In this document: positions 1 through 29,560 of the stretch, piece by piece
How the letters are laid out: each line of letters begins with the position of its first letter
How positions within the stretch are numbered: the first letter of the stretch is position 1
Origin: Phycisphaerae bacterium
GTDB lineage: Bacteria; Planctomycetota; Phycisphaerae; UBA1845
Assembly (NCBI GenBank): GCA_029260165.1
Contig: JAJDDT010000017.1
Span: 1 to 37,989, forward strand
Direction: 5' to 3'
DNA length: 37,989 nt
The notes under the pieces: model-generated
Told to the model about the DNA's origin: nothing
The model's input: the letters and a program-made list of their open reading frames with translations, nothing else
Database searches by the model: none
Position numbers and translations under genes: made by a program

Positions 1-3000
1 TCGCACCAGCGGTACCGATCAGGTCACCGTTCGGACACGCACAGTAATTACCAAAACCGGTCACCGCACAGGAAATATCGTCCGTACTGACGAACGCCTG
101 GAACGACGAACAGGTGTTTCCATAACGACGCGTGCACGATGCACAGATACCCATCGCCTCACCCGTTGGGATGTCGCAATAGTGGTAATCGCAAATGTCG
201 AGCAAATCGCTCGGCGGAACACCCATCACCCCGGCATCCACGACCGCTCCCGTGTGACAATCGCAGTCGCGGGCACAAACCCGTCCCGTAACGGGAGGAT
301 CCTTCTGGCCGGCGAGGGTAAACGCAACGTCCAGCCGTGCGTCAGCATCGGCAATATTCCACACAGCCGTGCCGGCAGCGTTGGACGCAATCTGCTGGGC
401 AGGTTCGCCGTTGGAATTAGTCGTCGCAATCCAGCCGATGTTGTACCGACCGAGCGTCGGCGAGACAGGAGCGATCGACAACCAGTTCTTCTTGTTCTTC
501 TCGATCTGCCTCATGGCAGGATCAAGATCAGAGAAGTCCATCACGATTTCCCAAATCGGATTACCTGCGAAAACCAAACCGGAATCCGAGAACGTAAACG
601 CCGGGTCATAAAGATTCTTGGACTGGCTGAAGCCTCCGTCCGCAGCAATCACCTCAATGCTGCCGGCCTGACAGGTATTGGGGGCTCCCGCCAGTGACGG
701 ACTCGGCGCACATTCGATCGTCGGAATACCACCACCGAAGAGACACTGGCACTCGGCGTTGTCAACGCAAAGCGTAGGTCCAACCGTCGGAACCCCGTTC
801 GGGCCCGCCCCGCCGCCACCCTGATTGATGACAAGGGAGAACGAATCCAAGGTCCCTGAAATGCCGGCAGCATTGTCAACAACGGTCAGAGTCCAGTCGC
901 CGAGCTTGTCGCTGCCGTTAAACGGCGCCAGCGACTCGGTCGGAATCCAGTCCCCACCCATCCCGTCAATACAGGTCAGTGGGTTGGCAGAATTATCATC
1001 GAAGACCGACCCGACAAAATCAGCCGCTCCCGGGAACACCGCACAATTGGTGATCTGACTTCCGTCAAACAGCGTCACGACTGTGGCACCATGCTCCAGC
1101 GTGATGGTCAGGTCCGAGATAAAGCCATGCGAGACGTTCACGACAACGTCCAGATCATTGATCGTGTCGCTGTCTATCACCGTGATGACCTTGCTCGCGC
1201 CGGTCGGAAGATTGTCCGGAACCGGGACAGCCGTCAGGTCACTGTCAATGGTTTTGGTCGTCGGCGGAGCGGCTGCATCGTTGATGATCGCCACGTTGAT
1301 GCCGAAGTAATCATCCGGCGTGTTCAGACACGGAATCGCAACGCAATCGCCGGGAACACTTCCAGCGCCGCAAGGCTCTGCATCCCCGAGTGTACAAACC
1401 GCACAGAGGGCATCGACAGCACCATTGCAGATACCGAGGGTGCCGCAGGCAGCGTCGTTGAAGTGAACGAAGTAGGCTGTGATGCTGTTGAGGAAACACG
1501 GATTGGGTGTGGTTCCCTTCAGCGTGAAATCGTCCGCCGTCGCAAAATAGGTTCCGGCAGGAATCCCAACGATATCGTTGCTCGCGTAATTCGAGCCAAA
1601 CGCCGTCGGCCCGTTCGGAGCACCGTTGTCCCAGGTGCAGGAATCGTCGACGCCGCAGGTTGCATTCGCACACTCGATTCCGCCTGCCGTAAACTGACCG
1701 CCCATACTGGAGCAATCGCCCGCCAACAGACGCTGACAGGTGCCGTCCGAGAAGCAACACGCCCCACTTCCACACACAGGTGCCAAAGCCGAGCACGCCA
1801 GACCAGACCCGAATCGCGAACCTGTCGCACAGTCGATCGGCAGAACACCTTCCTGCTGATCACCGGTCAGGTCATCGCAACAGCAACCGGGAGCCGGCAC
1901 ACAATCGATCGAAAGCGAACCATTGCCCTGATCGAGCGCGCCCGCGCCAGCCACACGAATCAGATACGACTGACCTGCGGTCACCGTTGCGGTGGCGGTT
2001 GACGTCCCGCCCGTGCAGGCAACATCGTCGTCGTTGCAACCGATTTCGGCACCCACGCAAGGTGCGTCGTGAATTACAACAACCGTGTCAAATCCAGCCT
2101 GATCACAGGTCGTCGCCGTCAGCGTACCGGTGCAGGACGCGGTGTAGTCAAACCACACGTCGTTGGCGGCACTGGCGTTACAAGTCGCCAGAGGTCCGTC
2201 CGTTCCCGCGCCCGTGTTGTCAAAGTGTACCGTTCCGTCACCCGCAGGCGTCGCAGCCGCACACAAATCATTGGCAGGGGTCAACTGCTTCTGACCGGAA
2301 AGCGTGAACTGAAGACCGAACCGTGTCGCGGGATCAAGACCCGTGCCACAACCCGTCGGATCAGGAATGCAGTCAGCAGAGGTGCCGGGGCCATTGCCAC
2401 ACGGATCGTCCTCCGCCGGACTACACACCGTACCCACCTGAGGTGTCCCCGCCGCACAAACATTGGCGTTGTCACCTGCATTGCCACCGATGTCGACAAA
2501 CGTGCCGGTACCGCCCAAGCCAACCGGAATAAATTGCTGCGCCCGATTCAGATAGGACACGTCCGACAGCATGAAGAAGGCCACTCCCTCATCGGTTAGA
2601 TCCATGTGCGCGATAACACCAAGCCAATACTTCGTATCCTTCTTCAATTTCATTGTCACGGGAATCGCGAGGTCATAAGCCCGCGGCATCAAATCCGTAC
2701 GGACACAGTCCGCTACGGTCGTACCAGCACCGCAGTCTGGAACGCCACTGATCGGACCACAGGTTGCGCCCGCATTGGGCGTACCAGCCGCACATCGGAA
2801 TCCCGAATTGGTACACAACATTCCCGGAATCAACGTCGTCGTGTACGAGCCCTGTGCAAAGAACTGCTGATAGACCACGTTGCCCGTGAAGCCGAACTCG
2901 TTCTCGGCCACGTTGACCACCGGAGTGCAACCGGGCCCCTTGCCGAGGCCGGCGGGCAAACCGTTGTCTTCGCACACAGCGACCGTGAAGCCCTCAATAA

Positions 3001-5743
3001 CACTGGGCAACGTGCCGTCGAAGCCATCTCCCATAAGGAACGACGTATCGAGCATGGTCATGAGACACGGATTGTCGCCTGTGTCATTAAGCTCAAAATC
3101 ATCCATCGTCACGATGAAGCGGTCCGAGTCAGGCAGCCCCGCGACCGGCTCGTTGAAAAACACGCTCGACGGACTGCCAAAATCATCAAGAAACGCACCA
3201 CTATCCCAGCCACAGCCCTCCTGGCATACGAAACCGAGGTCGGCACAATTCGCATCAAGATGCGGTGTTCCGCCAATCGCCAGACAGTCGGCAAAGGTCA
3301 ACTCATCGCACTGCTTGGCCGCACCACCACCGATGTCGTTGGCGATGTCGAGCGACCACTGGAACAGATTCCCGGTGTTGCCGTTGTTGAGATTGTCATC
3401 GATCGTGATACTCCACGTCCCGTTCTTCTCCAGACCGTCGAAGACCGCCAGCGGATTGGCAGGACGCGCACCATTGACGGGCGAATCCAGGCCGTCACCG
3501 TCAACCACCCAGTCAGAGACGGCTTCGTCGTTGAAGGTCAACTTGCTGCCAACCTCGCAACCGGCTGCGCTACAGCCATCAGGCGAACCGATGTTCATGC
3601 TGCCAACGTGGTGGTTCTGGTGAAGCACAGCCGTCGCCCCACCCGGAGCGGTCACAGTAACCGTCAACTCACTTCGATCGGGATGCGAAAGCACAAGATC
3701 GACATCCACGTCGCCCATAATGCCGGTGTCGGGAACGAAGAATTCATGCGTGAGACTACCGCCGTCAACCAGCGGCAAACCGGTACCATCGACCGGGATC
3801 ATTGGCGTCCCCTGACCCACACCAATCTTGAAATTCTTGACCTGACCGCCCAGATTGCAACACGCGATCGTCGGCGTCGCACAAGCGGGCGGGTCGGTGC
3901 AGATCGTCACGTCGCTGTTCACGACGATATCGAATTCACCAATGTCAGCCGCGCCAAATCCACCGACCTCAATCAGATAGGTCGTCCCTGCTTCAGAACA
4001 CCACGTCGCTTCGCCGTGCTCGAGGGGCGTCCCGCAATCGTCGTCGCCAAACGCCGCGCAGAAGCGATCGAGGCAGTCATCGCAGTACACATTCAGGACC
4101 GAATCAAACGCCGCCTGCGTGCTGCCACACAGCGACGCCGTCAGCGTGTTGCCGTCACCGACCACCGAGTACCAGACACCCTGAAAACCCGTCGAACCGC
4201 TTCCGCAATCCACGTTGCCATCGCCCGTTGCGGTGATGTTCTGCTGATTGAGTACCGGCGTACCGATGGTCAACGGTGTCGCGGCATCACAATCATCATT
4301 GGCCGGCGGCGGACCGCAAAGGTCCGTGCCGTTGAGGGCACAGGTCGTTCCCAGCGTCTGCGGCGTACCACCCATCGTGAGGCAGTCATCCACCTTGAGA
4401 TCATCGCACATGTTCGGACCGGTACAACAGGCAACCGTCGGATCCTTGGCAACGCTGATGTTCAACACGATCTCGTCGACACCGAGTCCAACGATACCGA
4501 ACAAACCAACCGCCGCGTAGCCATCCCAGGCGGTCAACGCGCCGCCGAACTGGTTCGTCACATTGACAGGTGGAGTTGCAAACACCGAAACGCCGCCACT
4601 CAACATGTCCAGCGTGGCGGAAATAATAATGTTCGGCTGCGGCACCCAATCCAGCGCATCGGTCGGATCCTCAATGCAATCAACAGCCGTGGTCCCCACA
4701 CCACAAGGTTCCGCAACCGCCGGGTCACAGGCCATACCATCAAGGGGTGTGCCGGGGGCACAGATCGTCGACGTCACGAAAATCGCGTCGCCACCGCCAA
4801 CAAGAATGAACTCAAACTCGTCGGGACCAGCCGGCGGGCAATCGAGGAAGCCCGGAAACAAATCGGTCGTGGCCAGGGCACCTGCCGTACCGGTGATCGT
4901 CAGCGTGATGTCCAGCTTGTCTGCCGGTACACCGCCGACCGCCGTTTCAGTAATCGCAGGCTGAATGGCATTGCACATCCCCGCCGGACAGTTGACGCCG
5001 ACACCAGGTGCACACGGTGTGACACCGTCGTTGCAGAATCCCAGAATGTCCGGGCCAAGGCTGTAGACGTCCAGATCTTCCATGATCCCGTCAAAGGTCA
5101 CATTGTCATCATCGTTCGGCAGACCAACGCCGTCGCCGGGAGCACCGAGAGCACACACACCGCTCAACACCCCACCCGGAAGGGCTGCGAGCGCCAAGGT
5201 CATATCGTAAGTCGAACCGGTGGGGCTTGCCGCCGTCGGACCATTGTGGGCCTGATGTCCACCACGACGCATCCTGCGATTCATCGACTCCATCTGAAGC
5301 CGCTTCACGCCGTCAAGACGATGAGCATCGAAAACGCCGACGCTGCCGCCCTTTGCCAAGGGCACAACCGTCGCAACCTGATCGAGACCCGCCTGTGCCA
5401 ACTGCTGACGGACAACATCCACCGACTGGGCGTTGGGCTGAGGTCCGACGAAATCGGCCCGCAGGACCGCCGTATCGGCCAGGACCACTGTGGGGGCCTC
5501 TAACTGCGATTCCTGCGTATCAACAACATTCTTGCTCTTGGATTCGACAACAAGGCCGACCAACAAACCATCTTCCGTGACGGCGGAAGCGGACTCACTG
5601 GTCAAGGCAGCACTCTGCTTGTCCAGTTGATCCTCCGCGGTCGCCGGTCGATCCGAAATCCCCCCCAGGATGGCCATTGCACCCAAAAGGGCAACAACCG
5701 CCGTAATCTTCACAACACGATCCGCACCACTCGATTCACCCAT
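1..5743 (-). CDS. Giant modular secreted protein, Cys-rich, with two P/Homo-B-like domains (partial; C-terminus beyond the left edge)
   Basis: Translating the minus strand from ATG at 5743 gives an open frame to the window edge (about 1,914 codons, no stop reached). A GGAG ribosome site lies about 8 nt upstream. The N-terminus has a hydrophobic export segment (about residues 10-28). Approximate order: an ACC-type Cys box (434-470); a pre-peptidase-C-like beta domain (478-608); a proprotein-convertase P-like domain (635-800, with LVLSHPDRSELTVTVTAPGG); a WDxGA/DDFxL/NPC domain (844-1150); a second pre-peptidase-like domain (1155-1281); a GACCFSDGTC box (near 1324); a second WDNGA domain (1369-1815) interrupted by a second P-like domain (1510-1640); and the start of a C-terminal GFGNYCxCPN module (1820 onward). 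P domains are known as beta-sandwiches beside proteases, but no protease motif is visible here. The role is inferred to be extracellular or cell-surface; ligand unknown. Confidence 0.85.
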   Translation of the reverse strand, partial: MGESSGADRVVKITAVVALLGAMAILGGISDRPATAEDQLDKQSAALTSESASAVTEDGLLVGLVVESKSKNVVDTQESQLEAPTVVLADTAVLRADFVGPQPNAQSVDVVRQQLAQAGLDQVATVVPLAKGGSVGVFDAHRLDGVKRLQMESMNRRMRRGGHQAHNGPTAASPTGSTYDMTLALAALPGGVLSGVCALGAPGDGVGLPNDDDNVTFDGIMEDLDVYSLGPDILGFCNDGVTPCAPGVGVNCPAGMCNAIQPAITETAVGGVPADKLDITLTITGTAGALATTDLFPGFLDCPPAGPDEFEFILVGGGDAIFVTSTICAPGTPLDGMACDPAVAEPCGVGTTAVDCIEDPTDALDWVPQPNIIISATLDMLSGGVSVFATPPVNVTNQFGGALTAWDGYAAVGLFGIVGLGVDEIVLNISVAKDPTVACCTGPNMCDDLKVDDCLTMGGTPQTLGTTCALNGTDLCGPPPANDDCDAATPLTIGTPVLNQQNITATGDGNVDCGSGSTGFQGVWYSVVGDGNTLTASLCGSTQAAFDSVLNVYCDDCLDRFCAAFGDDDCGTPLEHGEATWCSEAGTTYLIEVGGFGAADIGEFDIVVNSDVTICTDPPACATPTIACCNLGGQVKNFKIGVGQGTPMIPVDGTGLPLVDGGSLTHEFFVPDTGIMGDVDVDLVLSHPDRSELTVTVTAPGGATAVLHQNHHVGSMNIGSPDGCSAAGCEVGSKLTFNDEAVSDWVVDGDGLDSPVNGARPANPLAVFDGLEKNGTWSITIDDNLNNGNTGNLFQWSLDIANDIGGGAAKQCDELTFADCLAIGGTPHLDANCADLGFVCQEGCGWDSGAFLDDFGSPSSVFFNEPVAGLPDSDRFIVTMDDFELNDTGDNPCLMTMLDTSFLMGDGFDGTLPSVIEGFTVAVCEDNGLPAGLGKGPGCTPVVNVAENEFGFTGNVVYQQFFAQGSYTTTLIPGMLCTNSGFRCAAGTPNAGATCGPISGVPDCGAGTTVADCVRTDLMPRAYDLAIPVTMKLKKDTKYWLGVIAHMDLTDEGVAFFMLSDVSYLNRAQQFIPVGLGGTGTFVDIGGNAGDNANVCAAGTPQVGTVCSPAEDDPCGNGPGTSADCIPDPTGCGTGLDPATRFGLQFTLSGQKQLTPANDLCAAATPAGDGTVHFDNTGAGTDGPLATCNASAANDVWFDYTASCTGTLTATTCDQAGFDTVVVIHDAPCVGAEIGCNDDDVACTGGTSTATATVTAGQSYLIRVAGAGALDQGNGSLSIDCVPAPGCCCDDLTGDQQEGVLPIDCATGSRFGSGLACSALAPVCGSGACCFSDGTCQRLLAGDCSSMGGQFTAGGIECANATCGVDDSCTWDNGAPNGPTAFGSNYASNDIVGIPAGTYFATADDFTLKGTTPNPCFLNSITAYFVHFNDAACGTLGICNGAVDALCAVCTLGDAEPCGAGSVPGDCVAIPCLNTPDDYFGINVAIINDAAAPPTTKTIDSDLTAVPVPDNLPTGASKVITVIDSDTINDLDVVVNVSHGFISDLTITLEHGATVVTLFDGSQITNCAVFPGAADFVGSVFDDNSANPLTCIDGMGGDWIPTESLAPFNGSDKLGDWTLTVVDNAAGISGTLDSFSLVINQGGGGAGPNGVPTVGPTLCVDNAECQCLFGGGIPTIECAPSPSLAGAPNTCQAGSIEVIAADGGFSQSKNLYDPAFTFSDSGLVFAGNPIWEIVMDFSDLDPAMRQIEKNKKNWLSIAPVSPTLGRYNIGWIATTNSNGEPAQQIASNAAGTAVWNIADADARLDVAFTLAGQKDPPVTGRVCARDCDCHTGAVVDAGVMGVPPSDLLDICDYHYCDIPTGEAMGICASCTRRYGNTCSSFQAFVSTDDISCAVTGFGNYCACPNGDLIGTAGA

Positions 5744-6510
5744 TACTAATTCTCCGTAACATCCTTCAAGCTCCGTCCCGGACTGCCCGAGCCTCGCCTC
5801 CACTCGAGCACGTTTACTTTACCCGCCGCACCTGACAACCACTCGCCAACGGAATGAGTTCCTGCCATCTGCGACAAAATTTGAAAGGGAACAGCACGAT
5901 TGACCAACAGGCAATCTCCTTGCGAAGCGACCAGCGTTTGCAGGAGAAAGGACCAATCTGCGTGTTTCCTCGCTTTTATCTGCGTTACTCAAAAACCGAC
6001 ATGGAGAGATTGTCGAACAGGCTCAAACCGCGTTTCCGCAGTCGGTGGACTCTTCCACGCCACCTGTTCGCCGCTCTTTCCACTCCAAAACGAACGCCAC
6101 TCGTACTGACGTCTGACCGGGAAAACCACGCCCAAACGCCGGACAGGCCGCGAACCGGGAGATTCCCGCATCACGAACCGGTCCTGATAACGCCCCATTT
6201 TTATCAAATCCAGCGATCAGATGCAAGCCTGATTTCGGAGAATTCATCCCCAGGATAGCCAATCGCTTGTTACTCACACTGAAAAACGCAACGGGATAGT
6301 TACATTTTTAACGCGTGTCTGCAATTTTTCCGTCGCCAATGACTTTTCAGCACCACTGGAACGCAAAGTTCCGGAGGACATGACCCCGCCCATCCCCAAC
6401 CTGCCGGTTTTCACGCATGTAACGAATGGTAAACCTCGGCAAAACCGCGATTCTGCCTTGACCGAAACCCACGCCCTGCCGGGAGCGTCAATTGAGAGAA
6501 AACTGCAGGA
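5744..6510. other. Gene-poor intergenic region
   Basis: About 770 bases lie between the start of the giant secreted-protein gene and the end of the exosortase operon. Short open frames on both strands have no recognisable domain, signal peptide or credible ribosome site. No tRNA cloverleaf, strong hairpin terminator or direct repeat was found. The stretch must hold the promoter of the giant gene, but I could not identify a convincing -35/-10 pair. Confidence 0.6.
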
Positions 6511-8150: not shown

Positions 8151-8263
8151 CCGATCGTGACAGGAGGATCGCTCGTCTTCGGGTGGGCACGCCAGGTCGC
8201 AACCCGTGCATATTGAAACGTCCTTACGGACTAGGAACGCTATTGCTAATTTTGGAGAGTGTC

Positions 8264-13918: not shown

Positions 13919-14135
13919 GGATTTCCCCACCTGAACGCGACTCACTCCCGACGGTCGACGGGGCGACCCTTGAATTTCCGAACCATATCCGGCACAGTAT
14001 GGAGGTCGGCGTACAGGCCTCATTGACCTTGGCAGTACCCCCAGCGTCAGCCGGTCGTCGCGAGATAATGGCAGAATACGGTCCGTGCACGCGTCCGGAC
14101 CATTGCCACTGAGGGACCCCTTTGGGAGGAACGGA

Positions 14136-17100
14136 ATGCCTGCAACACGGCGAGTTGAGTACGATGGAAGAAATATTCCGGGTTCAACACTGACCTGGGC
14201 ATCCGCCTTGGTTGCTGTTTTCGCGCTGGTTCATCCTGCGAACGCACAATGGATCCAGTTCCAGGATGAAACATCTCAGCGACTGGTTGCAAATCCCGCC
14301 GTCGGGACCGCAGACGTCGAGGAAAAGGATTACGCATGGGGAGACGTCGACAACGACGGCGACATCGACGTCGTCTGCGTGCGAAAACAACCGTTCACGA
14401 CGGCAGGCCGACGCACGAACGTGCTTTTCCTGAACGAGGGTATTGTGGAAGGCCATGCAGTCAACGGCGTGCTCGTTGACCGCACCGACCTGTTTGCCGT
14501 CGCCTCGGATGTTGCCGGTGACAGCGGATTCAGCACACCCACCAACGATCGGGACGTCGTATTGGCTGACGTCAACAACGACGGCTGGCTTGACGTCGTG
14601 ACCGCCACGACCCTGAGCGAGGGTCAGCCCAGGCACATTTCGCACCCGCGTATTTACATCAACCTTGGCGAATCGGCTGGAAGCTGGCTTGGTTTTCGCT
14701 ACGAGGATGCCCGGTTTCCGCAGTTGTTGTCGATCCCGGGGGGCGTCGCTTCGCCACCCCGCTTCTGCTCCGTTGCATTTGGCGACGTCACCGGAGACGA
14801 CATCCCCGATCTCTATTTTGGTGACTACGATTCCGGTCCCCAGCCACACACCGACATGAACGACCGGCTGCTCATCAACGACGGGAGCGGCACTTTTGTG
14901 GACCAGAGCACGCAACGCATGACGGCTGAGATGCTGCAATCCGCGTTCGGGACATCCGTCGCCATCGCGGACATGAACAATGACGGTGTCAACGACATCG
15001 TCAAGGACACCGCGTTGAACCCGCCGCAACGCATTTCGATCAGCTACAACAATCCCGCCAACGAAGGGCTTTTCAACCAGTTTGATATTATTTACGAAAT
15101 CGCGCCGTATTTCATCTCAGTCGATGATCTGAATCAGGACGGAAACCTCGACATCGTCATCACCGACGACGGGGCGGATCGATATTTCATCAACCAGGGA
15201 AACGGGCCGGGGAACATGGCGACGTTCAGCAACAATGTCCTGCTGCGCGAATCAGGCACAGACGGTGAATTCGGAAGCAACTCGATCATCGCCGACCTGA
15301 ACAATGATGGTCACAACGACGCGATTGTTTGCGACGTGGACGTCGACGGGTTCGGTTGTTCGCGCCAGACCCGCATTTACCGCAACCTGGGAAACCTGCC
15401 CGGCATCACGCTTCAGGAGCAGGGAACCGGCGGTATCCCTCCGAACCTGTTGGTCGGCGTTCACGATATGGCGGTCTTCGACATTGACGGGGACGGATGG
15501 AAGGATCTGCTCATTGGTCGCTGCTCGAGTACGGAGGTCTGGATGAATCAGCCTCCGACAGGGCTGACGTTCAGTTATCCCCAGGGATTGCCCGCGTTTG
15601 TCACGCCGAACCAGTTGTTCACGTTCCAGGTTCAGATCTCCGTCACAGGCGGCGGCATACTGGATCCCTCAAGCCCTCAAATGCACCTGTCCGTCGACGG
15701 GGGTGCGACATCGACGACTTCATTAACGCAAATCGGTGCAGGGCTGTACGAAACAACCCTGCCGGCGTCGGCCTGCGCGACACGGTTTTCGTTCCATTTC
15801 AGCGCCCAAACCCAGGGCGGCGGCATCGAAACGGATCCGTCCAACGCTCCCGCCGGCAGGTTCAACGCGTCCGCGGCAGCAGGAACAGCCATCACGTTTA
15901 CTGACGAGATCGAGGGAGACGTCAGCGGGTGGACCATCGTCAATGATCCCGCCCTGCTTTCGGGCGCATGGGAGCAGGCTGACCCGAACGGAACGTTGTC
16001 CGGAGCCTTGCAAGCCGCTCCTGAAGATGATGCGACCCAGGCAGCCAACGCCGTGATGGCGTTTATCACGGAAAACGCGCCGGCAGGATCCACCGCGGGC
16101 GCGGCAGACGTGGACGGTGGTCCCACGCATCTGATCACACCTGAATTCGCATTGGCAGGAACCGACGCCACCATCTCCTGGCAGCAGTGGTTCTTTACAA
16201 CGACGGGGTCGGCGGATGTTCTTGATGTTTTTGTCACGAACTCACCCGGTGATGCGGGTTGGGTCCTCGTGCAATCAACCGACGGCACGAGCGGATGGGA
16301 GACTGCGTCATTTACCGTTGGAGATTTTGTCACACCGACCAATCAGGTTCGCGTGCGGTTCACTGCGTCCGACTCACCCAACGATTCGATCACCGAAGCC
16401 GGTATCGACAACCTGCAGTTACAACAACTGGTCTGCGCGGGTTGCACCAACGCAAGCTGCGACGACGGGTTGTTCTGCAACGGCCCGGAGACCTGTCAGG
16501 GATCAACCTGCCTGCCTGGAATTTCGCCATGCAGCCTGAACGAGGTGTGCGACGAAACCGGCACCGCCTGCGTCGATTGCCTCAGCGCGGGCGATTGCGA
16601 CGACGGACTGTTCTGCAACGGAGCCGAAACCTGCGTTGGCAACACTTGCACCGCCGGTTCGGATCCATGCCCCGGGCAACTCTGCGATGACGGACCGGAC
16701 GTGTGCGTTGACTGCCTGACCAATGGCGACTGCGACAACGGTGACGATTGCGATGGTATCGGGACCTGCACCGGTGGCGGCGTCTGCCAGCCGGGCTCCG
16801 CGCTCGACTGCGACGACGGATTGTTCTGTAACGGCGTGGAGTCCTGCTCCATGGGGGCGTGTGTTCCGGGAACCAGCCCGTGCGGCAGCTTCTGCGACGA
16901 GGATTTCGATTCCTGTGATCTCGCGCTCCAGCCACGCATGGGAGACCCGGTTCGCGGGTTGTCCGCAGCGGAACGCACGTTGTTCGATGCGGGGCTTGTC
17001 GCATTCAATCGCGATTTTGACGAAGGCAGCGGCCTCGGGCCCATCTTCAATCAGGATAGCTGCGGCTCGTGTCACTCCGTGCCCACCACCGGCGGCTCGG

Positions 17101-19193
17101 GAACGATTCAGGTGCGACGCTTCGGCCAGGCGCTGAAAGGCGGATTCGATCCCCTCGATTCGCTGGGTGGCTCGCTGCTACAGTTCAACGGTCTCAACGA
17201 AATGTGTTTTGAAGTCATTCCTCCCGAAGCCAACATCACAGCCAATCGCCTGACACCGTCCATCTTCGGTGGCGGTCTCGTTGAGACTATTTCCGACGCG
17301 GACCTGCTCACCAACGCAAACACCCCACCGAGCGGCAGCGTCAGCGGAATCGCCCACATGGTACAACCGCTCGAGGACCCGTTTGGACCACAGCGCGTCG
17401 GACGATTCGGCTGGAAGGCACAGGTCGCCACGCTACTGACGTTCTCAGGCGATGCGGCGCTGAACGAGATGGGGATTACCAACCGACTCGTCACAACCGA
17501 AAACGCGCCCAACGGCGATTTGGCTGCGTTGGCAGCGTGCGACACCGTCGCCGACCCCGAGGATGGTCCTGACGGTCTGGGATTCCACTTCATCGATCGC
17601 ACCACGCACTTTCAACGCATGATGGCTGCCCCGCCGCAAACGCCCCGGTCCGGCATGACCGGTGAAACAATTTTCATCAGCATTGGCTGCTCAGACTGCC
17701 ACATTGCGACTCCGTTCCTGACCGGATCAACCGATATTGCGAGCCTGTCCGACCGAACGATCAAGCCATACTCGGATTTCCTGCTGCACGACATGGGTCT
17801 GCTGGGTGACGGCATCGTTCAGGGAGCGGGTACGGAACGCGAGATGCGGACACCCGCACTCTGGGGCGTGCGCGTGCGCGATGTTTTGATACACGACGCA
17901 CGGGCGGCTGGTGGAACATTCACCTCGCGGGTCGTCGATGCGGTGGCTGCCCATGATGGCGAAGGTGCTCCCTCTGCTGCCAACTTTGCTGCCCTGTCGA
18001 CCGTTGACCAGAATGCGATCGTCCGGTTCCTCGATTCACTCGGTCGGGCGGAGTTCGATCACGACGGTGATAACGTCGTCGAAATCCCCGATTTCAACGC
18101 GTTCAAGCAATGCTTTGATTCCGTGGTCACCGTCACGCCCGATGACGAATGTGCCATTTCTGATTTCGACCGGAACGGCGACGTCAATCTCGACGACTAC
18201 CAGGCCTTCCTGTTGGCCTATGACGGGTTGCAGGAGGATTGCAACGGTAACGGCACGCTGGACATCACGGACATCCTGAACGGAACCAGTCCGGACGTTA
18301 ACCTTGACGGGCGCCCCGATGAATGTGCAGCCTTCTGCGCGAACGATTGCGATTGCATCGATTCGGACGCGTGCAGCGTCGACGTCTGCACCGACAATCT
18401 CTGCGAAAACTTCACAGGACTGCGGTATGGGGACGTCCAGTCGCCGTATGGCGGCGTGGTCCAAACGTCAGATATTTTGTGCGCGGTCGTCGGTTTTGGT
18501 AACTATTGTTCCTGCCCGAATGCGGATATTGCCGGGTGCGGTTCCAGTGGGGTTCCGATTCAAACGAACGATATTCTTGCCATCGTGGATGCATTCGGGG
18601 GGACGGACCCATGTGGGTGCCCGTTCTCGACAGGACCGATGGCGGCGTCCGGATCATCGCCGTCCGCTGCGGTCGAAACCATCGTGCCCGGTCCAGCCGC
18701 AACCATTTCGCTGGTCGCGCATGACAAATCCGCAAGACCGGGCGGGACCATTCGAATTGACGCATTCGTCTCCGGCGCGGCAGGCCTTCGCGCATACGAG
18801 GTGGGACTCACTGCCACGGTGGGACGCGGAAAGGACGTTTCCGTATCGAAAATGATTATCGATGACGCAAGAACCGATTTCGTTTTCGCCGGTGGTTTGG
18901 CCATTTCCGCCTTTGACAACAATCGAAGCCGTCTGGGAAGTGTTTCAAATGCCGGTCCGGTTGACGTGCCGCATCGCGAACAGCACTACATTGGTACTTT
19001 CTTTCTTGTGATTCCAACGAAAGCGGCAGGTGCAATGCGTGTTTCTGTGCAGGATTCCAACACAGCGATTTGGCAGTCACCGATCGATCGAATTGGAATC
19101 ACCGCCGTTGAAGAACTCCATATTCCGCTGACGAACCCCCGACAGGTGCCGATCAGCAGCGTCGATGGTGTTTCGGGCATGCGAGTCCGATAA
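14136..19193 (+). CDS. Giant secreted FG-GAP / DUF1111 di-haem oxidoreductase-like / dockerin-like / cohesin-like protein
   Basis: ATG 14136 follows GGGAGGA by seven bases and opens a signal peptide ending near PANAQ, giving 1,685 residues. Residues about 45-520 hold seven FG-GAP/VCBS calcium repeats. Residues about 600-755 form a beta-sandwich ending in PNDSITEAGID. Residues about 770-930 hold repeats of the CDDGLFCNGxExC type. Residues about 935-1300 match the di-haem DHOR (DUF1111) family, with haem sites CGSCH (Cys976/979, His980) and CSDCH (Cys1185/1188, His1189), plus KPYSDFLLHDMG and MRTPALWGVR. EF-hand/dockerin-like loops follow (1307-1385), then a Cys module with GFGNYCSCPN (about 1399-1494), then a cohesin-like beta domain (about 1510-1665). 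Both haem motifs are intact, so redox activity is possible. The fusion of these parts is unusual. Confidence 0.88.
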   Translation: MPATRRVEYDGRNIPGSTLTWASALVAVFALVHPANAQWIQFQDETSQRLVANPAVGTADVEEKDYAWGDVDNDGDIDVVCVRKQPFTTAGRRTNVLFLNEGIVEGHAVNGVLVDRTDLFAVASDVAGDSGFSTPTNDRDVVLADVNNDGWLDVVTATTLSEGQPRHISHPRIYINLGESAGSWLGFRYEDARFPQLLSIPGGVASPPRFCSVAFGDVTGDDIPDLYFGDYDSGPQPHTDMNDRLLINDGSGTFVDQSTQRMTAEMLQSAFGTSVAIADMNNDGVNDIVKDTALNPPQRISISYNNPANEGLFNQFDIIYEIAPYFISVDDLNQDGNLDIVITDDGADRYFINQGNGPGNMATFSNNVLLRESGTDGEFGSNSIIADLNNDGHNDAIVCDVDVDGFGCSRQTRIYRNLGNLPGITLQEQGTGGIPPNLLVGVHDMAVFDIDGDGWKDLLIGRCSSTEVWMNQPPTGLTFSYPQGLPAFVTPNQLFTFQVQISVTGGGILDPSSPQMHLSVDGGATSTTSLTQIGAGLYETTLPASACATRFSFHFSAQTQGGGIETDPSNAPAGRFNASAAAGTAITFTDEIEGDVSGWTIVNDPALLSGAWEQADPNGTLSGALQAAPEDDATQAANAVMAFITENAPAGSTAGAADVDGGPTHLITPEFALAGTDATISWQQWFFTTTGSADVLDVFVTNSPGDAGWVLVQSTDGTSGWETASFTVGDFVTPTNQVRVRFTASDSPNDSITEAGIDNLQLQQLVCAGCTNASCDDGLFCNGPETCQGSTCLPGISPCSLNEVCDETGTACVDCLSAGDCDDGLFCNGAETCVGNTCTAGSDPCPGQLCDDGPDVCVDCLTNGDCDNGDDCDGIGTCTGGGVCQPGSALDCDDGLFCNGVESCSMGACVPGTSPCGSFCDEDFDSCDLALQPRMGDPVRGLSAAERTLFDAGLVAFNRDFDEGSGLGPIFNQDSCGSCHSVPTTGGSGTIQVRRFGQALKGGFDPLDSLGGSLLQFNGLNEMCFEVIPPEANITANRLTPSIFGGGLVETISDADLLTNANTPPSGSVSGIAHMVQPLEDPFGPQRVGRFGWKAQVATLLTFSGDAALNEMGITNRLVTTENAPNGDLAALAACDTVADPEDGPDGLGFHFIDRTTHFQRMMAAPPQTPRSGMTGETIFISIGCSDCHIATPFLTGSTDIASLSDRTIKPYSDFLLHDMGLLGDGIVQGAGTEREMRTPALWGVRVRDVLIHDARAAGGTFTSRVVDAVAAHDGEGAPSAANFAALSTVDQNAIVRFLDSLGRAEFDHDGDNVVEIPDFNAFKQCFDSVVTVTPDDECAISDFDRNGDVNLDDYQAFLLAYDGLQEDCNGNGTLDITDILNGTSPDVNLDGRPDECAAFCANDCDCIDSDACSVDVCTDNLCENFTGLRYGDVQSPYGGVVQTSDILCAVVGFGNYCSCPNADIAGCGSSGVPIQTNDILAIVDAFGGTDPCGCPFSTGPMAASGSSPSAAVETIVPGPAATISLVAHDKSARPGGTIRIDAFVSGAAGLRAYEVGLTATVGRGKDVSVSKMIIDDARTDFVFAGGLAISAFDNNRSRLGSVSNAGPVDVPHREQHYIGTFFLVIPTKAAGAMRVSVQDSNTAIWQSPIDRIGITAVEELHIPLTNPRQVPISSVDGVSGMRVR

Positions 19194-19633: not shown

Positions 19634-20944
19634 ATGAGATTTGCGCACTGCTGTCTTCTGGGCGTTTTGGTGTTGGGAGGCGGAACCGCGTTGGGCGGTA
19701 ACGGCCGAATATTCTTCATGCCCGCCGGTGAGGACCCCTCCAATTCGACGCCTGGAGAGAATTTTGTCGTTACGGTTGATCCCGAAACAACGTTGACCAT
19801 GGTCGCCTACATTGAGAATGTCGGTGTCCTCATCGAGCAAACCTCGATTTCGGGTCTCTGCAGTTATGCCAGTTCGTCAGGTGGTGGTGACATGCAGTTC
19901 GCTTTCGAGGGGGTTCGCATTGATACAACTCGCCCGGACTATTTGCTGGCTTTCGGAAGTGGTTTTCCCGCGTTGGACTTTGGGCAGTGTCTCGATGATG
20001 TCGCGTGCAATGTGGGGCAGGATTGCCCTGGAAACAGCACATGCGTCGACAATCTCTGCACACTGGTACGTCCCCGCGCCGGGATCGTTTCATTCGGCGG
20101 TCCGGTCTTCGTGACCACCCCTCGGTACATTGGCGAACTCGACTATGAGATCCCGGCTGATGCATCGGGAGAATACAAGTTCATCCCTGCTTGTCTCGAA
20201 ATTGGGGGTGAATGCCTTCAGATTGGCACCGGTATTGAGGCGGGTGCCCTGCCAATCGCGGCTGATGGCCTGACCATCCGACTCCCGGACCCACCGGCAC
20301 CTGACCCTGTGATCGTCCACGAGGACGGACTTGAGGGGCAGACGCGACCATTCAGTGGATACATCGATCCGCGGTCCGAACGCAATAGTGACCTGACCGA
20401 CGCAGGGGTCAGTTCAGCTCAGGTTCGGTTCAACACACCGGTGTTTGGTTCACCGGATGGTTTTGCACTGACAACGTTCAATTTCTTTGTCACCCAATCA
20501 GACGGCAATTCCGCCCCGGACGTGACAGGTCTGACCGACATCGACGGAGACGCTACCCACTACGAGGTCGTGCTGGACCGCCCCATCACGCCGCAGGTCT
20601 GGACCACCATTCGCGTCGTTGCATTCAATGCGGACGGTACGCGTATCGCCGACAACGGCAACCAGGGACCGGGTGTTAACGAAGTTGACCGAATTGACAT
20701 TGGTTTTTTGCCGTGTGATGTCGATCAGAGCGGATCGTGCAGTCCGATCGACCTGTTCCGATTCCGTCAACTAATCAACAATCCAGGTCAGGAGCCGGAC
20801 CAGGGTACGCGGGGCGATGTGTTGGACATGGACCGAAACGACATGGTCTCGCCGGTGGATCTGTTCCGATTCCGTCAGTTGATCAACGGTGTGCCACCTG
20901 CAACGATACCATGGTCAGGGCAGTCGATCGGGTCTCGTCCGTAA
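19634..20944 (+). CDS. Secreted protein with SbsA/Ig-like domain and C-terminal dockerin-like module
   Basis: ATG 19634 was chosen because a purine-rich AAAGGAAAG site precedes it and a signal peptide follows (about residues 1-22); upstream in-frame codons lack both. The product is 436 residues. Residues about 25-225 are a beta-rich region containing a small Cys cluster (CNVGQDCPGNSTCVDNLC). From about 235 (PFSGYIDPR) to 355 there is an Ig/SbsA-like domain. The last 75 residues form a two-loop calcium-binding module with DVDQSGSCSPIDLFRFRQLI and DMDRNDMVSPVDLFRFRQLI, close to type I dockerins, ending in a short W-x-G-x-S...RP tail. The last two domains are paralogous to those of the LVIVD protein at 26912-29560. 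The catalytic or ligand role is unknown; an extracellular protein that docks through its C-terminus is inferred. Confidence 0.85.
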   Translation: MRFAHCCLLGVLVLGGGTALGGNGRIFFMPAGEDPSNSTPGENFVVTVDPETTLTMVAYIENVGVLIEQTSISGLCSYASSSGGGDMQFAFEGVRIDTTRPDYLLAFGSGFPALDFGQCLDDVACNVGQDCPGNSTCVDNLCTLVRPRAGIVSFGGPVFVTTPRYIGELDYEIPADASGEYKFIPACLEIGGECLQIGTGIEAGALPIAADGLTIRLPDPPAPDPVIVHEDGLEGQTRPFSGYIDPRSERNSDLTDAGVSSAQVRFNTPVFGSPDGFALTTFNFFVTQSDGNSAPDVTGLTDIDGDATHYEVVLDRPITPQVWTTIRVVAFNADGTRIADNGNQGPGVNEVDRIDIGFLPCDVDQSGSCSPIDLFRFRQLINNPGQEPDQGTRGDVLDMDRNDMVSPVDLFRFRQLINGVPPATIPWSGQSIGSRP

Positions 20945-21028: not shown

Positions 21029-23221
21029 TCATCGCAAGACGCTTAGAATATCGCAGTACTGATCCGTCCACAGCGGCCCGCGCGTTGATGACTTCACGAC
21101 CTGCCACTGATGGCTGTCTGCAAAGGCCTTGAGGTCCGCCTCGTCGCGCGCAAGCACAACATAGTGCGACATCATCTTTCCGTCGGCCAAGAGTTCCTCC
21201 GTAACCTCCGCATCAAGCCTTCTCAAACAAAAGATGTCCAGCTCGCCGGCTGCCCTTGCCAGGACAGGCTCGAGATTGAAGAAACGATTCGAGATATGGA
21301 ACACGACCATTCCGTCGTCTCGCAGCTTGTCCAGGTACATCCTGATCGCCTCGACGGAAATGAGGTGGGTGGGGACAGCATCACCGCTGAACGCATCAAG
21401 GACAATCAGTCCGAACTTCCCGTCAGGCTCCTCCGTCATCGTGAGCCGACCATCACCCGTCACGATCTCGATTTTTCCTTCTGATTCAGCCAGGAATGAA
21501 AAGTAACCACTGCTGTATGCGAGACGTTCGATGGCTGGGTCCAGCTCGAAAAACGTTAGGGATTGTCCTGGCTGGGCGTAGCTCGCGATGGAACCAACAC
21601 CCAGACCGATGACCGCGATCGGTGATTCGTCGCGCCTCCCGTTCAGAACCTTAAAGACGTCACCGATGGGCCCGGTTCGATGGTAGTACGAGAGTGGTTC
21701 TGTCGCACGGTCCGGTTCCACTCGCTGGCGACCATGGTCGGTCCCTGCGTGCACAAGCATGCGGAATCGTCCCGCCGTATCAACCAGCACATGCTTGACG
21801 CCAAAGAAATTCCGCTCGACGTGCAGCTTGTCCCCGGCGTTGCCACCAACGTACAAACCGATCGCCGTCATCAGGGACGCAAAGCACAAACCGAACCGAA
21901 CGGGCCTCTTCCGGGAAGCGACGCAGACGATGGCTGGTACGCCGAAGAGGATAACGAACACGCCTCGGCTCAGGGTCGCATTCGACAGGTCGAGCACACC
22001 AACGATCACGGCGAGTACGAGTGCCAACCCCATGGCGAAGATCACGTCGTTGCGTTTTGATACATCAGTCGATTTCGGCGTCCGCCTGACGAGACACGCC
22101 ACAACAAGGACAAGCGGGTACTCGATCACCGTGTCAAAGACCAGCGGCGCTACGATGGCGTTGAATACCCCCCCGAGTACACCGCCGACCGACATCCACA
22201 GAAAGAATTCAGTGAGGTTGGCGGCTGCGGGTCGAGCGTCTGCCAATTGCGCATGACAGACCATCGAGCAAACGAAAAACGCAGCCAGGTGCACCATGAT
22301 GAGCAACCATGGCATGTTCAATTCCTCGAACATGAGCAGCGCCAACGGCAGAACAATGATCGGCATGACGCGGGACATTGTCGCCGTGGTAACCAGTGGG
22401 CGTTTCGAGAAGACAATAATGAACGTCAGCAAATACAATGCCAAGGGAACGACCCACAGCAACGGCACCGCAGCTACGTCCGTCGTGATGTGCGTGGTCA
22501 CGCCGAGCATGAGACTCGACGGCACGAACGCAAACACCATCCACCACCCCCGCTGTCCCCATGTGATGGTCGGGCTGGGGTTGTGTGACCCGTCCGCGCG
22601 CATCGCGGAGTCGACGAGACCCTGCCGCCGAGTCTTCATGAGAAGTGATCCCACGCATATCGCGAACATCGCGACGAGCGTCACATAGCCGATCGACCAT
22701 GCGGAGGCCTGCTGGTCCAACATCGAGACACGCTCGATGAGAAACGGGTAGCCCAACAGCGCGACGAGGCTGCCGATGTTGCTGGCTGCGTAGAGAAAAT
22801 AGGGGTCGTGGGCATCCTTATGGTCGGTGGCTGCGAACCACCGTTGCAATAGTGGAGCTGAGCTTGAGACGACAAAGAAAGCCGGTCCGACGTGCACCAG
22901 CAACGAAAGCATGAGCCACGACACCGGCTCGTCACCCGGTCGCGGGCCGTCGATGTTGGCCAGCGCGATCGGCAACACGATCAACGGCGTGAGCATGACC
23001 AACAGGTGCACGACGGCTTGTGTTTTCACACCAAACCAGCGTATCGAGCCGTGGGCGTACGCGTACCCCGCCAGTAAAATCGCCTGAAAGAACACCATGC
23101 AGGTATTCCAGACGGCGGGCGTTCCACCCAACTTGGGCAGGAGCATCTTTCCGACCATGGGCTGAACCACGAACAGCAAAGATGCGCTAATCAGGAGTGT
23201 GACCGAAAACAGAACAACCAT
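21029..23221 (-). CDS. Membrane-fused spermidine synthase-like protein
   Basis: ATG 23221 follows a TAGGGGA ribosome site and gives 730 residues. The first about 470 residues contain around a dozen hydrophobic helices, resembling the transporter-like half of fused MFS/spermidine-synthase proteins. It includes a conserved-looking VVQPMVGKMLLPKLGGTPAVWNT start. From about 480 a Rossmann methyltransferase-fold domain of the polyamine aminopropyltransferase family begins, with IAVIGLGVGSIASYA for nucleoside binding, FELDP as the acidic strand end, GDGR, and VLDAFSGDAVP with the catalytic-type Asp. Soluble spermidine synthases transfer an aminopropyl group to putrescine; membrane-fused homologues are widespread but their substrate is unclear. 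It is the last gene of the mreBC cluster, 83 bases after mreC. Confidence 0.85.
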   Translation of the reverse strand: MVVLFSVTLLISASLLFVVQPMVGKMLLPKLGGTPAVWNTCMVFFQAILLAGYAYAHGSIRWFGVKTQAVVHLLVMLTPLIVLPIALANIDGPRPGDEPVSWLMLSLLVHVGPAFFVVSSSAPLLQRWFAATDHKDAHDPYFLYAASNIGSLVALLGYPFLIERVSMLDQQASAWSIGYVTLVAMFAICVGSLLMKTRRQGLVDSAMRADGSHNPSPTITWGQRGWWMVFAFVPSSLMLGVTTHITTDVAAVPLLWVVPLALYLLTFIIVFSKRPLVTTATMSRVMPIIVLPLALLMFEELNMPWLLIMVHLAAFFVCSMVCHAQLADARPAAANLTEFFLWMSVGGVLGGVFNAIVAPLVFDTVIEYPLVLVVACLVRRTPKSTDVSKRNDVIFAMGLALVLAVIVGVLDLSNATLSRGVFVILFGVPAIVCVASRKRPVRFGLCFASLMTAIGLYVGGNAGDKLHVERNFFGVKHVLVDTAGRFRMLVHAGTDHGRQRVEPDRATEPLSYYHRTGPIGDVFKVLNGRRDESPIAVIGLGVGSIASYAQPGQSLTFFELDPAIERLAYSSGYFSFLAESEGKIEIVTGDGRLTMTEEPDGKFGLIVLDAFSGDAVPTHLISVEAIRMYLDKLRDDGMVVFHISNRFFNLEPVLARAAGELDIFCLRRLDAEVTEELLADGKMMSHYVVLARDEADLKAFADSHQWQVVKSSTRGPLWTDQYCDILSVLR

Positions 23222-26911: not shown

Positions 26912-29560
26912 TTATGGACGCGCCGCTTCCAACGATACAAGCTGCCAGGACCGTGTCGCAGTTCCGGCACCCTGTACGATCTGTCGAAAAACAAACAAAT
27001 CCAAAGGCGACACGATACCATCGCGATTCATGTCGAGAAAATCCACCATCGCCCCCTGCTCCGGTGTGGAAACGCCATTAGCCAAGGAACGGAACCTGAG
27101 CAAGTCGAATGGCGCAACCATGCCGTTCTGGTCCACATCACCCGGAAGAGCTGACATATCAATCCGGTCAGGCTCATTGGTTATTTCGCCCAGATTGCCC
27201 TGGTTTTCGATCCGGTTGCCAGCCATGTCCTCCACATCAGCGATGAGGGTGAACCAGCATCCTGGCGGCAGCGGCGCAACGAATTGCACCTCGACGATCG
27301 GGTTGCTGATCGCGTCGACAGAAACGATCGCCGGCGGGACTGCCCCGGTCGATTCGAGCACGAAATCATCGACCGACAAATCGCCACCACCCACCGACCG
27401 CACAGGCTCGCTGAATTGCATCACAACCCGGTCGATCCCCAGATTGAAATTCACCCCATCCGTACTCTCCAGACGCGGATCGATGTAACCGCTGAACGGG
27501 AAAACGATGGTGGGATCAGCGTCATGATCCATGACGGGTGGTGTCACATCCTCGTCGAAACACTCGATCACACGCACGGCGAATTCATCGATCGCCGCTT
27601 CGGTGATGGAATCGTTGGGGCAGTCATCGACCGAAAACTGCACGTTCAGCGTCTCGCCCGGATCGGCGAAATCGCTGAGACGGAATTCCCGCTCAACCCA
27701 CTCCGGACCGGTTGAGGTGAGGGCGGCGATCTCCTGCCACGATCCGCCACCGTCGGCTGACACAGCCACACGCAGCCTGTCCTGGGTTCCGACCCCGTTC
27801 CAGGAAAACCAGCTTGCAAAACTGATGGTCACGTCCCGCTGATCGATCACGACGGTTGGCGAGGTCAGGAAAAACGGCCCGCCGTCCACGTCCGACTGCC
27901 CAGCCCCCACGCCTGGCTCGTTGGGGGCGGTGACAAACGCCATCGATCCCTCGCCACCCGTGAAATCATCGCCCGGAGCCGACGACGTGCCCGTCGGGTC
28001 AACGCGCTTCCACCCCCCGATGTTGTTTTCGACCGACGGACAGTCCTCCGAAAAGACCGTCCATCCCTGGCTCGTCTCGAAATCGTCTTCAAAAAACGTC
28101 TGCGTGTCTGAAATCACCTCCGCAAGGTAGGTAGCCTGCGGTGCGCCGGGCGGATCAACCACCACCCCGCCGCCTGCGGTCTGAACCTCGACATAGTAAC
28201 TGACGAATGAACCACAAGGTGCCCCCGGAATCTGAGCTTCAAAAAGCTCGGCGGAAATCTGCGTAAACGGAACCGAGACCGGGTTGGCGGTCCCCTGATC
28301 CTCGGATATCACGTCGGCGAACAGCGTTACTCCATTCGCAAGGGGTTGATCGCAGCCTGGGTCGATGCGCACGGTCAGGGTCGCCCCCGCCTGCGGATCG
28401 ACCTGTTCGACCAGCCCGTCGGGATAGGCGAGCGAGAGCAGCACATCGCCAGCTGAGATGATATGCAATCCCTCCCGCACGTCGCTGATCAATATCCGGT
28501 CCCCGCCCGGCAATGGGTAAACACCCCACGCGCCCCCAAATCCGAACGGTTGCGTATCCGACGTGTCAAACCGCGCCACCTCGGTCAGAATTCTTTGCGC
28601 CTCGTCGATGTCGAGAATCACCAGACCCGCCTGATACCAGGACACGAAAACGCGATTGCCAACCACGACCACGTTGTGCGCACTGTTCGCATCAGAGGGC
28701 GGAACAACGAACGTGTCACGCAGGGTAATGTCCAGACCACCGCCAAAAGCCGGGGCCATCTCGTACAACCGAACCGGACCGCCCGTTCGTTCCTCGCCGA
28801 CCACAACCCACCGTCCGTTCGCGGAAGGCCACGCAGCGTGCGTCGACGTCCCTGACGCAGCCCCGAGAAACACCGGCCCCGCACCCGCCAGATCGGTGAC
28901 GTCGTAAACCCGGATACCACCGTTCCAGGCGCACGCGTAGAGGCGACCATCGACCACCGTGACGTCGTGGACGAAACTGCTACCGACGTCGTCGATAAAC
29001 CAGCGATTTTCGGTGATGCGTGCCGGGGGGTTGTTCGGATCGTAACCGGTCAGATCGACAATACCGACGGTCGGGTCCCGACTGTCTGCCAGGTACAAAT
29101 ATCCATTGTCGTAGAAAACGTTGTGCGCATCCGCATAGCCTTGCGTGGAAATCCACGTCAGATGTCGCGGGTTAAACGGGTCGCGAATGTCGACGATCTC
29201 GACGGCGTCGTTGCCGTCACCTTCCAGGGCGATGAACAACAACCCGTTGGCGGATTTGACATCCTGGGCGGACGCGAAATTGTTCGGCGGTTCAACGACC
29301 CATTCGAGAAATCGATCCGGCTCGCGCGGGTCCGAGATATCGAAAAAATGGACCTTGTTGTCTCCAAATTGTCCGACAAACGCGATGTCGCCATCGGCCC
29401 ATACATCCGCGTACGACCCGGAATCCACGTCACCCTGACCGGTCAGGACCAGTTCGATCGGACAGTCACCCGCGTCTGCGGATGTGGCAGGAAACAGTGA
29501 CGAGACGATCAGACAAACAATCAAACGAGAAATGATGCGGGGCGTGAGGTGGTCGTGCAT
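26912..29560 (-). CDS. Secreted LVIVD-repeat protein with Ig-like and dockerin-like C-terminus
   Basis: ATG 29560 starts an 882-residue protein with a signal peptide (about 1-30, ending near TSADAG). Residues about 32-385 carry LVIVD-type beta-propeller repeats, for example FFDISDPREPDRF, VEIVDIRDPFNPRHLTW, IRVYDVTD and LVILDIDEAQR. Residues about 390-500 are a beta domain. Residues about 500-680 form a sandwich with DVDGGPFFLTSP and PNDSITEAAIDEFAV, closely similar to the central module of the di-haem protein at 14136. An Ig/SbsA-like domain begins at PFSGYIDPRLES (about 687). A dockerin-like pair with DVDQNGMVAPFDLLRFR and DMNRDGIVSPLDLFVFRQIV ends the protein (about 800-865). It is inferred to be extracellular. 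LVIVD repeats are of unknown function, and no enzyme motif is present. Confidence 0.87.
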   Translation of the reverse strand: MHDHLTPRIISRLIVCLIVSSLFPATSADAGDCPIELVLTGQGDVDSGSYADVWADGDIAFVGQFGDNKVHFFDISDPREPDRFLEWVVEPPNNFASAQDVKSANGLLFIALEGDGNDAVEIVDIRDPFNPRHLTWISTQGYADAHNVFYDNGYLYLADSRDPTVGIVDLTGYDPNNPPARITENRWFIDDVGSSFVHDVTVVDGRLYACAWNGGIRVYDVTDLAGAGPVFLGAASGTSTHAAWPSANGRWVVVGEERTGGPVRLYEMAPAFGGGLDITLRDTFVVPPSDANSAHNVVVVGNRVFVSWYQAGLVILDIDEAQRILTEVARFDTSDTQPFGFGGAWGVYPLPGGDRILISDVREGLHIISAGDVLLSLAYPDGLVEQVDPQAGATLTVRIDPGCDQPLANGVTLFADVISEDQGTANPVSVPFTQISAELFEAQIPGAPCGSFVSYYVEVQTAGGGVVVDPPGAPQATYLAEVISDTQTFFEDDFETSQGWTVFSEDCPSVENNIGGWKRVDPTGTSSAPGDDFTGGEGSMAFVTAPNEPGVGAGQSDVDGGPFFLTSPTVVIDQRDVTISFASWFSWNGVGTQDRLRVAVSADGGGSWQEIAALTSTGPEWVEREFRLSDFADPGETLNVQFSVDDCPNDSITEAAIDEFAVRVIECFDEDVTPPVMDHDADPTIVFPFSGYIDPRLESTDGVNFNLGIDRVVMQFSEPVRSVGGGDLSVDDFVLESTGAVPPAIVSVDAISNPIVEVQFVAPLPPGCWFTLIADVEDMAGNRIENQGNLGEITNEPDRIDMSALPGDVDQNGMVAPFDLLRFRSLANGVSTPEQGAMVDFLDMNRDGIVSPLDLFVFRQIVQGAGTATRSWQLVSLEAARP

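Follow-up and report, generated by a model that had tools for sequence, protein, structure and literature searches.

Background

What is the domain that closes the large di-haem protein of a Phycisphaerae bacterium, and what could it be doing there? The protein is encoded in the window, by which we mean the whole stretch of DNA that was analysed; its 37,989 nucleotides are an entire contig (C28) of a genome of 4.43 Mb in 119 contigs, called G000 below. A sequence-only reading had suggested that the end of this protein resembles a cohesin, that dockerin-like modules end two proteins nearby, and that such modules could form an undescribed surface assembly system. Here we argue that the domain is a divergent cohesin-fold domain, as predicted structure and family comparisons support, and that together with a dockerin-like module it makes up a C-terminal tail which recurs on about 25 proteins of the genome. 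That these tails join exported enzymes into a surface assembly is a plausible, if still tentative, proposal.

A family of terminal domains in one genome

The open reading frame of 1702 residues is real, and the two motifs that had drawn attention to its end, ARPGGTIRIDAFVSG and GTFFLVIPT, both lie within its last ~165 residues. In the Pfam scan the C-terminal part of the protein is nearly blank. The terminal domain has no name in the Pfam and NCBIfam scans, and the cohesin family PF00963 has no match to it even at E <= 10. At that threshold PF00963 has 11 places in the genome, two of them over the cut-off and none of them the window's domain; among the 25 copies described below it matches one at E <= 1 (E 0.059).

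Searched with the domain alone, the genome yields 26 matches at E <= 10; 25 of these, itself included, have E <= 3.6e-6. A profile of 42 members raises the number to 49 matches at E <= 1. Of these, 25 are full copies (E <= 5.1e-33), and the remaining ones are mostly pieces of a variant domain, treated below, and fragments at contig ends. All 25 full copies end no more than 22 residues from the stop codon, and no protein of this genome has more than one copy of the terminal type. Conserved in the domain are D-x-x-R-x-D-[FY]-x-F-x-G, a D, R-[LIV]-G, Y-x-G-T-F and A-x-G. The viral collection contained no relative of it. When the PDB was searched by sequence with the domain alignment, only two weak matches appeared, with E 0.35 and 0.43; each was to a mitochondrial ribosomal protein, and they were rejected.

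Is the fold that of a cohesin?

An AlphaFold2 model of the terminal domain, built from four sequences, is all-beta except for three helical residues, with a mean predicted local distance difference test score (pLDDT) of 59.2 and a predicted template modelling score of 0.60. Foldseek found 31 matches in the PDB at E <= 1e-3, and 30 of them are cohesins or cohesin-containing chains; the exception is Spo0M. With VIA-align 2 the best match is to 2vo8 (Z 11.5, 122 residues, 2.6 A), and cohesins or cohesin-bearing chains make up 45 of the best 50 rows, including 2o4e, which is titled only as a protein-protein interaction module. The other five rows are an adhesin CLIPPER domain and parts of glycoside hydrolases.

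Comparison of profiles points in the same direction. A profile of 48 domains was compared with one built from 28 planctomycete domains that PF00963 detects. The two align collinearly over 139 columns, with P 2.6e-6 and a probability of 88.7, and the 25 own-genome copies alone reach P 8.1e-5. Reversal of the target gave P 0.11 and ten column shuffles P 0.15-0.77; five rotations, which leave long stretches intact, still match. The target profile was made from 28 of 30 fetched cohesin loci, two with short matches (L094 and L095) having been left out. When six of its members were compared with the PDB, all 30 sequences at E <= 0.01 were cohesins or scaffoldin chains; two of them are labelled endoglucanase, and the structure-match list gives both of these entries as cohesin complexes. 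Finally, when 76 domains were scored with a cohesin hidden Markov model (HMM), 17 exceeded 10 bits, the best having E 4.6e-5 at Z 10000; of the same 76 reversed, none did.

We regard the terminal domain as a divergent cohesin-fold domain, a view supported by the model and by the family alignments; its family is distantly related to cohesins and lies below PF00963 detection. With 24 further full copies in the genome, and with a family similarity to cohesins that vanishes in reversed and column-shuffled controls, the original observation stands beyond chance. The main and refutable claim of the sequence-only reading was the cohesin fold, for which it named a nine-strand jelly roll, along with calcium-dependent binding, as support. 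The structure search and the profile comparison bear out the jelly roll, but the order of nine strands is not proven because model confidence is moderate and the middle part, in a model of ten strands, is unreliable.

A dockerin-like module and a terminal domain in tandem

Directly before the terminal domain stands a Cys-rich module with two dockerin-like repeats (alignment A5), the tail-type module. It has 25 matches in its own genome, the best 24 of which are listed, and 25 in the congener G001, all listed. In 44 of these 49 listed matches the domain comes next in the same reading frame; four more run into a contig end, and the last is an additional, internal copy. Counted from the other side, 21 of the 25 full domains of G000 have a tail-type module before them. 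Two more lose their upstream part to a contig end, and the other two have a single degenerate repeat in that place. A different arrangement was seen in the congener, where locus L152 (contig C27 of G001; 1203-2561, + strand) has two terminal-type domains in tandem and then a tail-type module cut by the contig end.

Whether the module is itself a dockerin is less direct a matter. The window's copy matches no Pfam family at E <= 10, and so not PF00404. Alignment A5 finds modules of another genome, G020, at E 2.4e-11, whose own PF00404 matches (E 3.2e-4 and 0.002) stay below the cut-off. The tail-type module always has D at the final position of its loops (D19, D52) and has mostly lost the other calcium ligands. 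As judged from its letters, the window's own module lacks most of the usual ligands in its loops, and calcium dependence of this module is therefore doubtful.

Other genera have the tail with other dockerin flavours: in G020 the sequences are those of ordinary calcium loops, and G030 and G021 have a distinct type with PDGF-x-N-x-x-D-x-N-H-A-L. Elsewhere among the relatives the domain is not terminal, and a dockerin or Cys-rich repeats come after it. Distances between modules and distances between domains correlate over 19 tails (Mantel r 0.53; none of 2000 permutations reaches the value), which can be explained by common descent alone.

Which proteins carry the tail?

Pfam was run on 21 of the 25 tail proteins, four short and incomplete frames being left out; 10 of the 21 have matches at E <= 0.01 and 11 have none. 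Three are peptidases (an M10 metallopeptidase, an M12-type metallopeptidase and a subtilase), and there are redox proteins, namely the DHOR protein of the window and a glucose/sorbosone dehydrogenase that also has a cytochrome c match under the cut-off. The others are a beta-helix protein that also passes a Pel9A-like (pectate-lyase-type) model with 27.1 bits against 25.2, an FG-GAP protein, and three proteins with matches that stay under the cut-off: an endonuclease/phosphatase-like one in a lamin-tail protein, Vgb-lyase and MauG in a second protein, and TSP3 in a third. The 21 proteins scanned, of 25, include no glycoside hydrolase family, such as would mark a cellulosome. Judging from signal-like N-termini that are visible by eye, the tail proteins, which include peptidases, oxidoreductases, propellers and scaffold-like proteins, are probably exported.

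In several of them a second, cohesin-like version of the domain stands upstream, in G000 mostly with a Cys-rich insert. Compared with the terminal-domain profile, seventeen such variant sequences give P 2.9e-21 (0.15 when reversed); compared directly with the cohesin profile they match weakly, at P 3.4e-4 over 31 columns. One protein of 965 residues (locus L118, contig C6, 34000-41614; gene at 2348-5242, + strand) combines three variant domains with a tail-type module and a terminal domain. With four cohesin-like modules in all, it is the most scaffold-like protein that we have seen.

How far does the family reach?

The domain occurs in 30 of the 60 genomes searched, G000 included, at E <= 1e-3: in 27 of 36 of its own family and in 3 of 24 others of the order. 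The highest count in one genome is at least 63 matches among the best 64 candidates scored; the counts per genome of the domain, the tail-type module and ordinary dockerins come from the best 64 to 100 candidates. None of 391 other genomes of the phylum has it at E <= 1e-8 with at most the best nine candidates scored per genome, and at that setting weak relatives may be missed. Further matches came from one Phycisphaerae metagenome-assembled genome and from one of Planctomycetota, where the protein is identical to that of family member G014. A contig filed under candidate division KSB1 (L070) has a tail domain that hardly differs from copies of G000, and judging from this likeness it is probably misbinned.

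In a tree, which has no support values, most copies of G000 group with the congener and five (L021 and L030-L033) fall elsewhere; the tails of G030 and G021 cluster together, and a separate cluster holds most copies whose chain lacks a dockerin. The tail-type module was found in 15 of the 60 genomes, all 15 of which have the domain, and its count follows that of the domain with a Spearman rho of 0.66. Pfam cohesins, present in 24 of 60, do so with a rho of 0.61. Both correlations are confounded by relatedness, and the modules used to build the tail-type model stand beside the domain.

What might the tail be for?

Computation shows the fold, a distant kinship between the family and cohesins, the position at the C-terminus, the dockerin-like module in tandem and the spread at family level; several roles can be imagined that fit these features. 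The one that we tentatively favour is assembly. Once exported, a tail would use its cohesin face to take up the dockerin-like module of another tail-bearing protein. Alternatively, the partner could be an adaptor with several cohesin-like modules, for example the L118 protein described above. In either case no classical scaffoldin would be needed to keep the enzymes together at the cell surface or close to it. In a solved complex the dockerin sits on the sheet of cohesin strands 8-3-6-5 (PMC8063739); in our own mapping the signature of the family aligns with cohesin strands 5 and 6, in a part of the model that has low confidence.

A more specific version of the assembly proposal would do without any scaffold. 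Each exported enzyme would have a socket and a plug in one tail, matched in pairs specific to a lineage. Since every tail would then carry both, dozens of unrelated enzymes could link head to tail into a surface network. We think this version rather unlikely as it stands.

A number of observations weigh against assembly. The AlphaFold2 model of the domain is moderate, and pLDDT falls below 50 at residues 59-93, which hold the signature, and at residues 150-167. With the cohesin HMM the copy in the window reaches -0.4 bits, against 2.1 for its reversed sequence, and only two copies of G000 pass 10 bits, so that the sequence link to cohesins rests on the family and is strongest in relatives. The identity of the tail-type module as a dockerin is indirect: its profile compared with ordinary dockerins gives a probability of 0.8, or 4.5 after seven modules of relatives are added, both short of significance, and its AlphaFold2 model, with two helices (21-31 and 54-64) and a pLDDT of 42, is too poor for a structure search. 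Some relatives have the domain with no dockerin in the same chain; for eight such copies, loci of 13 kb contained dockerin-type matches in three cases, which we do not count as evidence. Ordinary dockerins are present in 60 of 60 genomes searched, whether the domain is present or not, and their count does not follow that of the domain (Spearman rho 0.08, p 0.53). Lastly, R or K is the last residue in 22 of the 25 copies, and a tail that recurs on many proteins with such an end would also suit a sorting signal.

Could the tail be just that? Both modules would then be one rigid C-terminal unit, recognized by a machine for export or for anchoring in the outer membrane and perhaps cleaved, and no network would exist. 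We treat this as a possibility to be taken seriously, though on balance not a likely one. The strictly C-terminal place in all 25 full copies, the basic last residue, the single terminal-type copy per protein, the unrelated N-terminal domains and the joint inheritance of the two modules are all what a sorting tail would have. On the other hand, cohesin-like variants also occur internally and in threes, and in those relatives where dockerin or Cys-rich repeats follow the domain it is no chain end. Nor did inspection by eye reveal a transmembrane helix or a PEP-CTERM end in the 25 tails, although the genome has exosortases. Two of its six exosortase-like genes (G000:C89:28477-28845 and G000:C116:14223-14684) lie ~3 and ~7 kb from tail domains, a proximity that can be chance because there are 25 tails in 4.4 Mb. 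The type IX secretion marker SprA_N was not found in the genome, but no control genome gave a match either.

If the cohesin fold has been repurposed, the ligand could be a glycan or something else at the surface, and the domain would work like a carbohydrate-binding module. Secreted-looking copies with no dockerin in the chain would fit such a role, as would a family signature unlike that of the cohesins which Pfam detects. We consider it improbable, for in the genera with the tail arrangement the domain stands in tandem with a dockerin-like module, and the signature maps to strands 5 and 6 of the face that binds the dockerin in the complex cited above. Least probable of all is the pairing put forward in the sequence-only reading, in which the partner of the terminal domain would be the ordinary dockerin that ends the protein encoded next downstream (the 19634 protein): the genes are adjacent and both products carry cohesin-like and dockerin-like modules, but 440 bases separate the genes, and this dockerin is the weaker partner candidate because its type occurs in every genome searched regardless of the domain, in numbers that do not track it.

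To return to assembly through the tails: if they bind as cohesins do, cohesin-dockerin assembly would be commoner in planctomycetes than Pfam annotation shows, and it would serve peptidases and redox enzymes, not cellulases. Both halves on every enzyme would mean a logic of assembly unlike the scaffoldin model, and the lineage-specific versions of the tail would give new orthogonal binding pairs.

The host gene and its neighbours

Features of the window are collected in Table 1.

Table 1. Positions of the host gene, its modules and related features in the 37,989-nucleotide window
Feature	Position	Strand	Description and evidence
Host open reading frame	14085..19193	+	1702 aa; FG-GAP repeats, Cys-rich repeats, DHOR, two dockerin-like modules, predicted cohesin-fold terminal domain
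DHOR di-haem oxidoreductase domain	17247..18041	+	Residues 1055-1319; PF06537 E 5e-27
First dockerin-like / EF-hand-like pair	18051..18209	+	Residues 1323-1375; EF-hand_7 E 0.099 in whole protein; isolated stretch PF00404 E 0.0016, EF-hand_7 E 0.00096; all below cut-offs
Tail-type (Cys-rich) dockerin-like module	18417..18626	+	Directly upstream of terminal domain; alignment A5, own-genome matches
Terminal cohesin-fold domain (predicted)	18696..19190	+	Last ~165 residues, up to stop codon; sequence family and predicted fold
Family signature	18861..18932	+	D-x-x-R-x-D-[FY]-x-F-x-G ... D ... R-[LIV]-G; conserved columns of alignments A1/A4
Gene downstream of host	19634..20944	+	Signal-like N-terminus, variant cohesin-like domain with Cys-rich insert, middle region, C-terminal dockerin
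Variant cohesin-like domain of 19634 protein	19700..20272	+	Family profile match; terminal-domain model A4 matches at 19871-19978 (E 0.028) and 20069-20182 (E 0.0077)
Ordinary type I dockerin-like module ending 19634 protein	20717..20869	+	PF00404 E 0.00213 and 0.0077 in two scans, 2.8e-4 isolated; 16.9 bits, below cut-off 22.9
Type I dockerin ending choice-of-anchor protein (882 aa, 26912-29560)	26996..27145	-	PF00404 29.1 bits, cut-off 22.9
Open frame with proprotein-convertase P-domain	2..5818	-	1939 aa; tail-type dockerin-like module at 14-133, cut by contig end

By eye, the likely true start of the host protein is the ATG at 14137, after GGGAGGAACGG and before a hydrophobic signal-like stretch, and the 19634 protein begins at AGGAAAGGAAAGAAAGC-ATG. 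Dockerin-type modules do end two nearby proteins, as had been noted, over the PF00404 cut-off in 26912-29560 (-) and under it in 19481/19634-20944 (+). The sequence-only reading had the motifs and the neighbours right; it had missed the module at 18417-18626, the variant domain of the 19634 protein and the cut tail of 2-5818 (-). As this last tail is cut by the contig end, any terminal domain of its protein would lie outside the window. Contigs C4, C15, C34, C107 and C114 likewise break inside such tails, and those of C34 and C76 have 95% DNA identity; being near-identical, the tails seem to break the genome assembly.

The remaining genes noted are a protein with DUF1573, Ig-like and redoxin domains (8183-10411, +), a TPR protein followed by an FG-GAP protein with an ASPIC/UnbV domain (10603-13918, +), and a fused MFS/spermidine synthase-like protein (21029-23221, -; NCBIfam 50.3 bits, cut-off 40).

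Comparison with known systems

How does the tail compare with cohesins and dockerins that are already known? The PF00963 cohesins of cellulosomal scaffoldins resemble the terminal domain in predicted fold and in a collinear profile match over nearly the whole of it. They differ in that the terminal domain is below detection by their family, has another signature motif and stands as a single copy at the C-terminus of an enzyme, whereas scaffoldins have several copies. Closer in placement are the cohesins of Clostridium perfringens glycoside hydrolases (2vo8, 2jh2, 2w1n) and of Archaeoglobus fulgidus (2xdh), which are among the best structural matches. They occur on the enzymes themselves and outside cellulosomes, as here, but the organisms are unrelated. 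These non-cellulosomal cohesins bind dockerin-bearing partners. In the XDoc dyad of type II cellulosomal systems, a beta-sandwich stands beside the dockerin at the C-terminus; in the tail described here, by contrast, the beta-sandwich is cohesin-like and comes after the dockerin-like module. XDoc complexes are among the titles of the structure matches. We know of no tandem dockerin-cohesin tail that is repeated over a genome.

Among the papers listed for cohesins and dockerins in planctomycetes, and among 10 of the 155 for Phycisphaerae, we found no description of the tail, though a survey of non-cellulosomal modules (PMC3035643) may mention it. A search for a 'GC-type dockerin' gave nothing. 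A 2024 survey of cellulosome-bearing bacteria has one organism of the planctomycete group, Limihaloglobus sulfuriphilus, whose largest scaffoldin has at most two cohesins (PMC11557425).

The nearest precedent is the 'planctosome', a cohesin-dockerin hypothesis proposed in 2019 for the freshwater planctomycetes Nemodlikiaceae (PMC6461901); the word appears in four of the papers searched. For this reason the phrase 'undescribed system' was too strong, and of the earlier interpretation it is the cohesin fold that is supported. The comparison suggests that the explanation we favour is close in idea to the planctosome. The published model is likewise planctomycete and non-cellulosic, and it has cohesin and dockerin modules together with M12B-type peptidases, a lamin-tail-domain protein with P-domains, and an adaptor with dockerin and cohesin (PMC6461901). 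In our genome the tail, or its dockerin-like part, is found on an M12-type peptidase, on a lamin-tail protein and on a P-domain protein, a likeness by description only. In the planctosome the cohesins belong to an anchor and an adaptor that bind peptidases (PMC6461901); here a cohesin-fold family that Pfam does not detect stands in tandem with a divergent dockerin-like module on about 25 different proteins.

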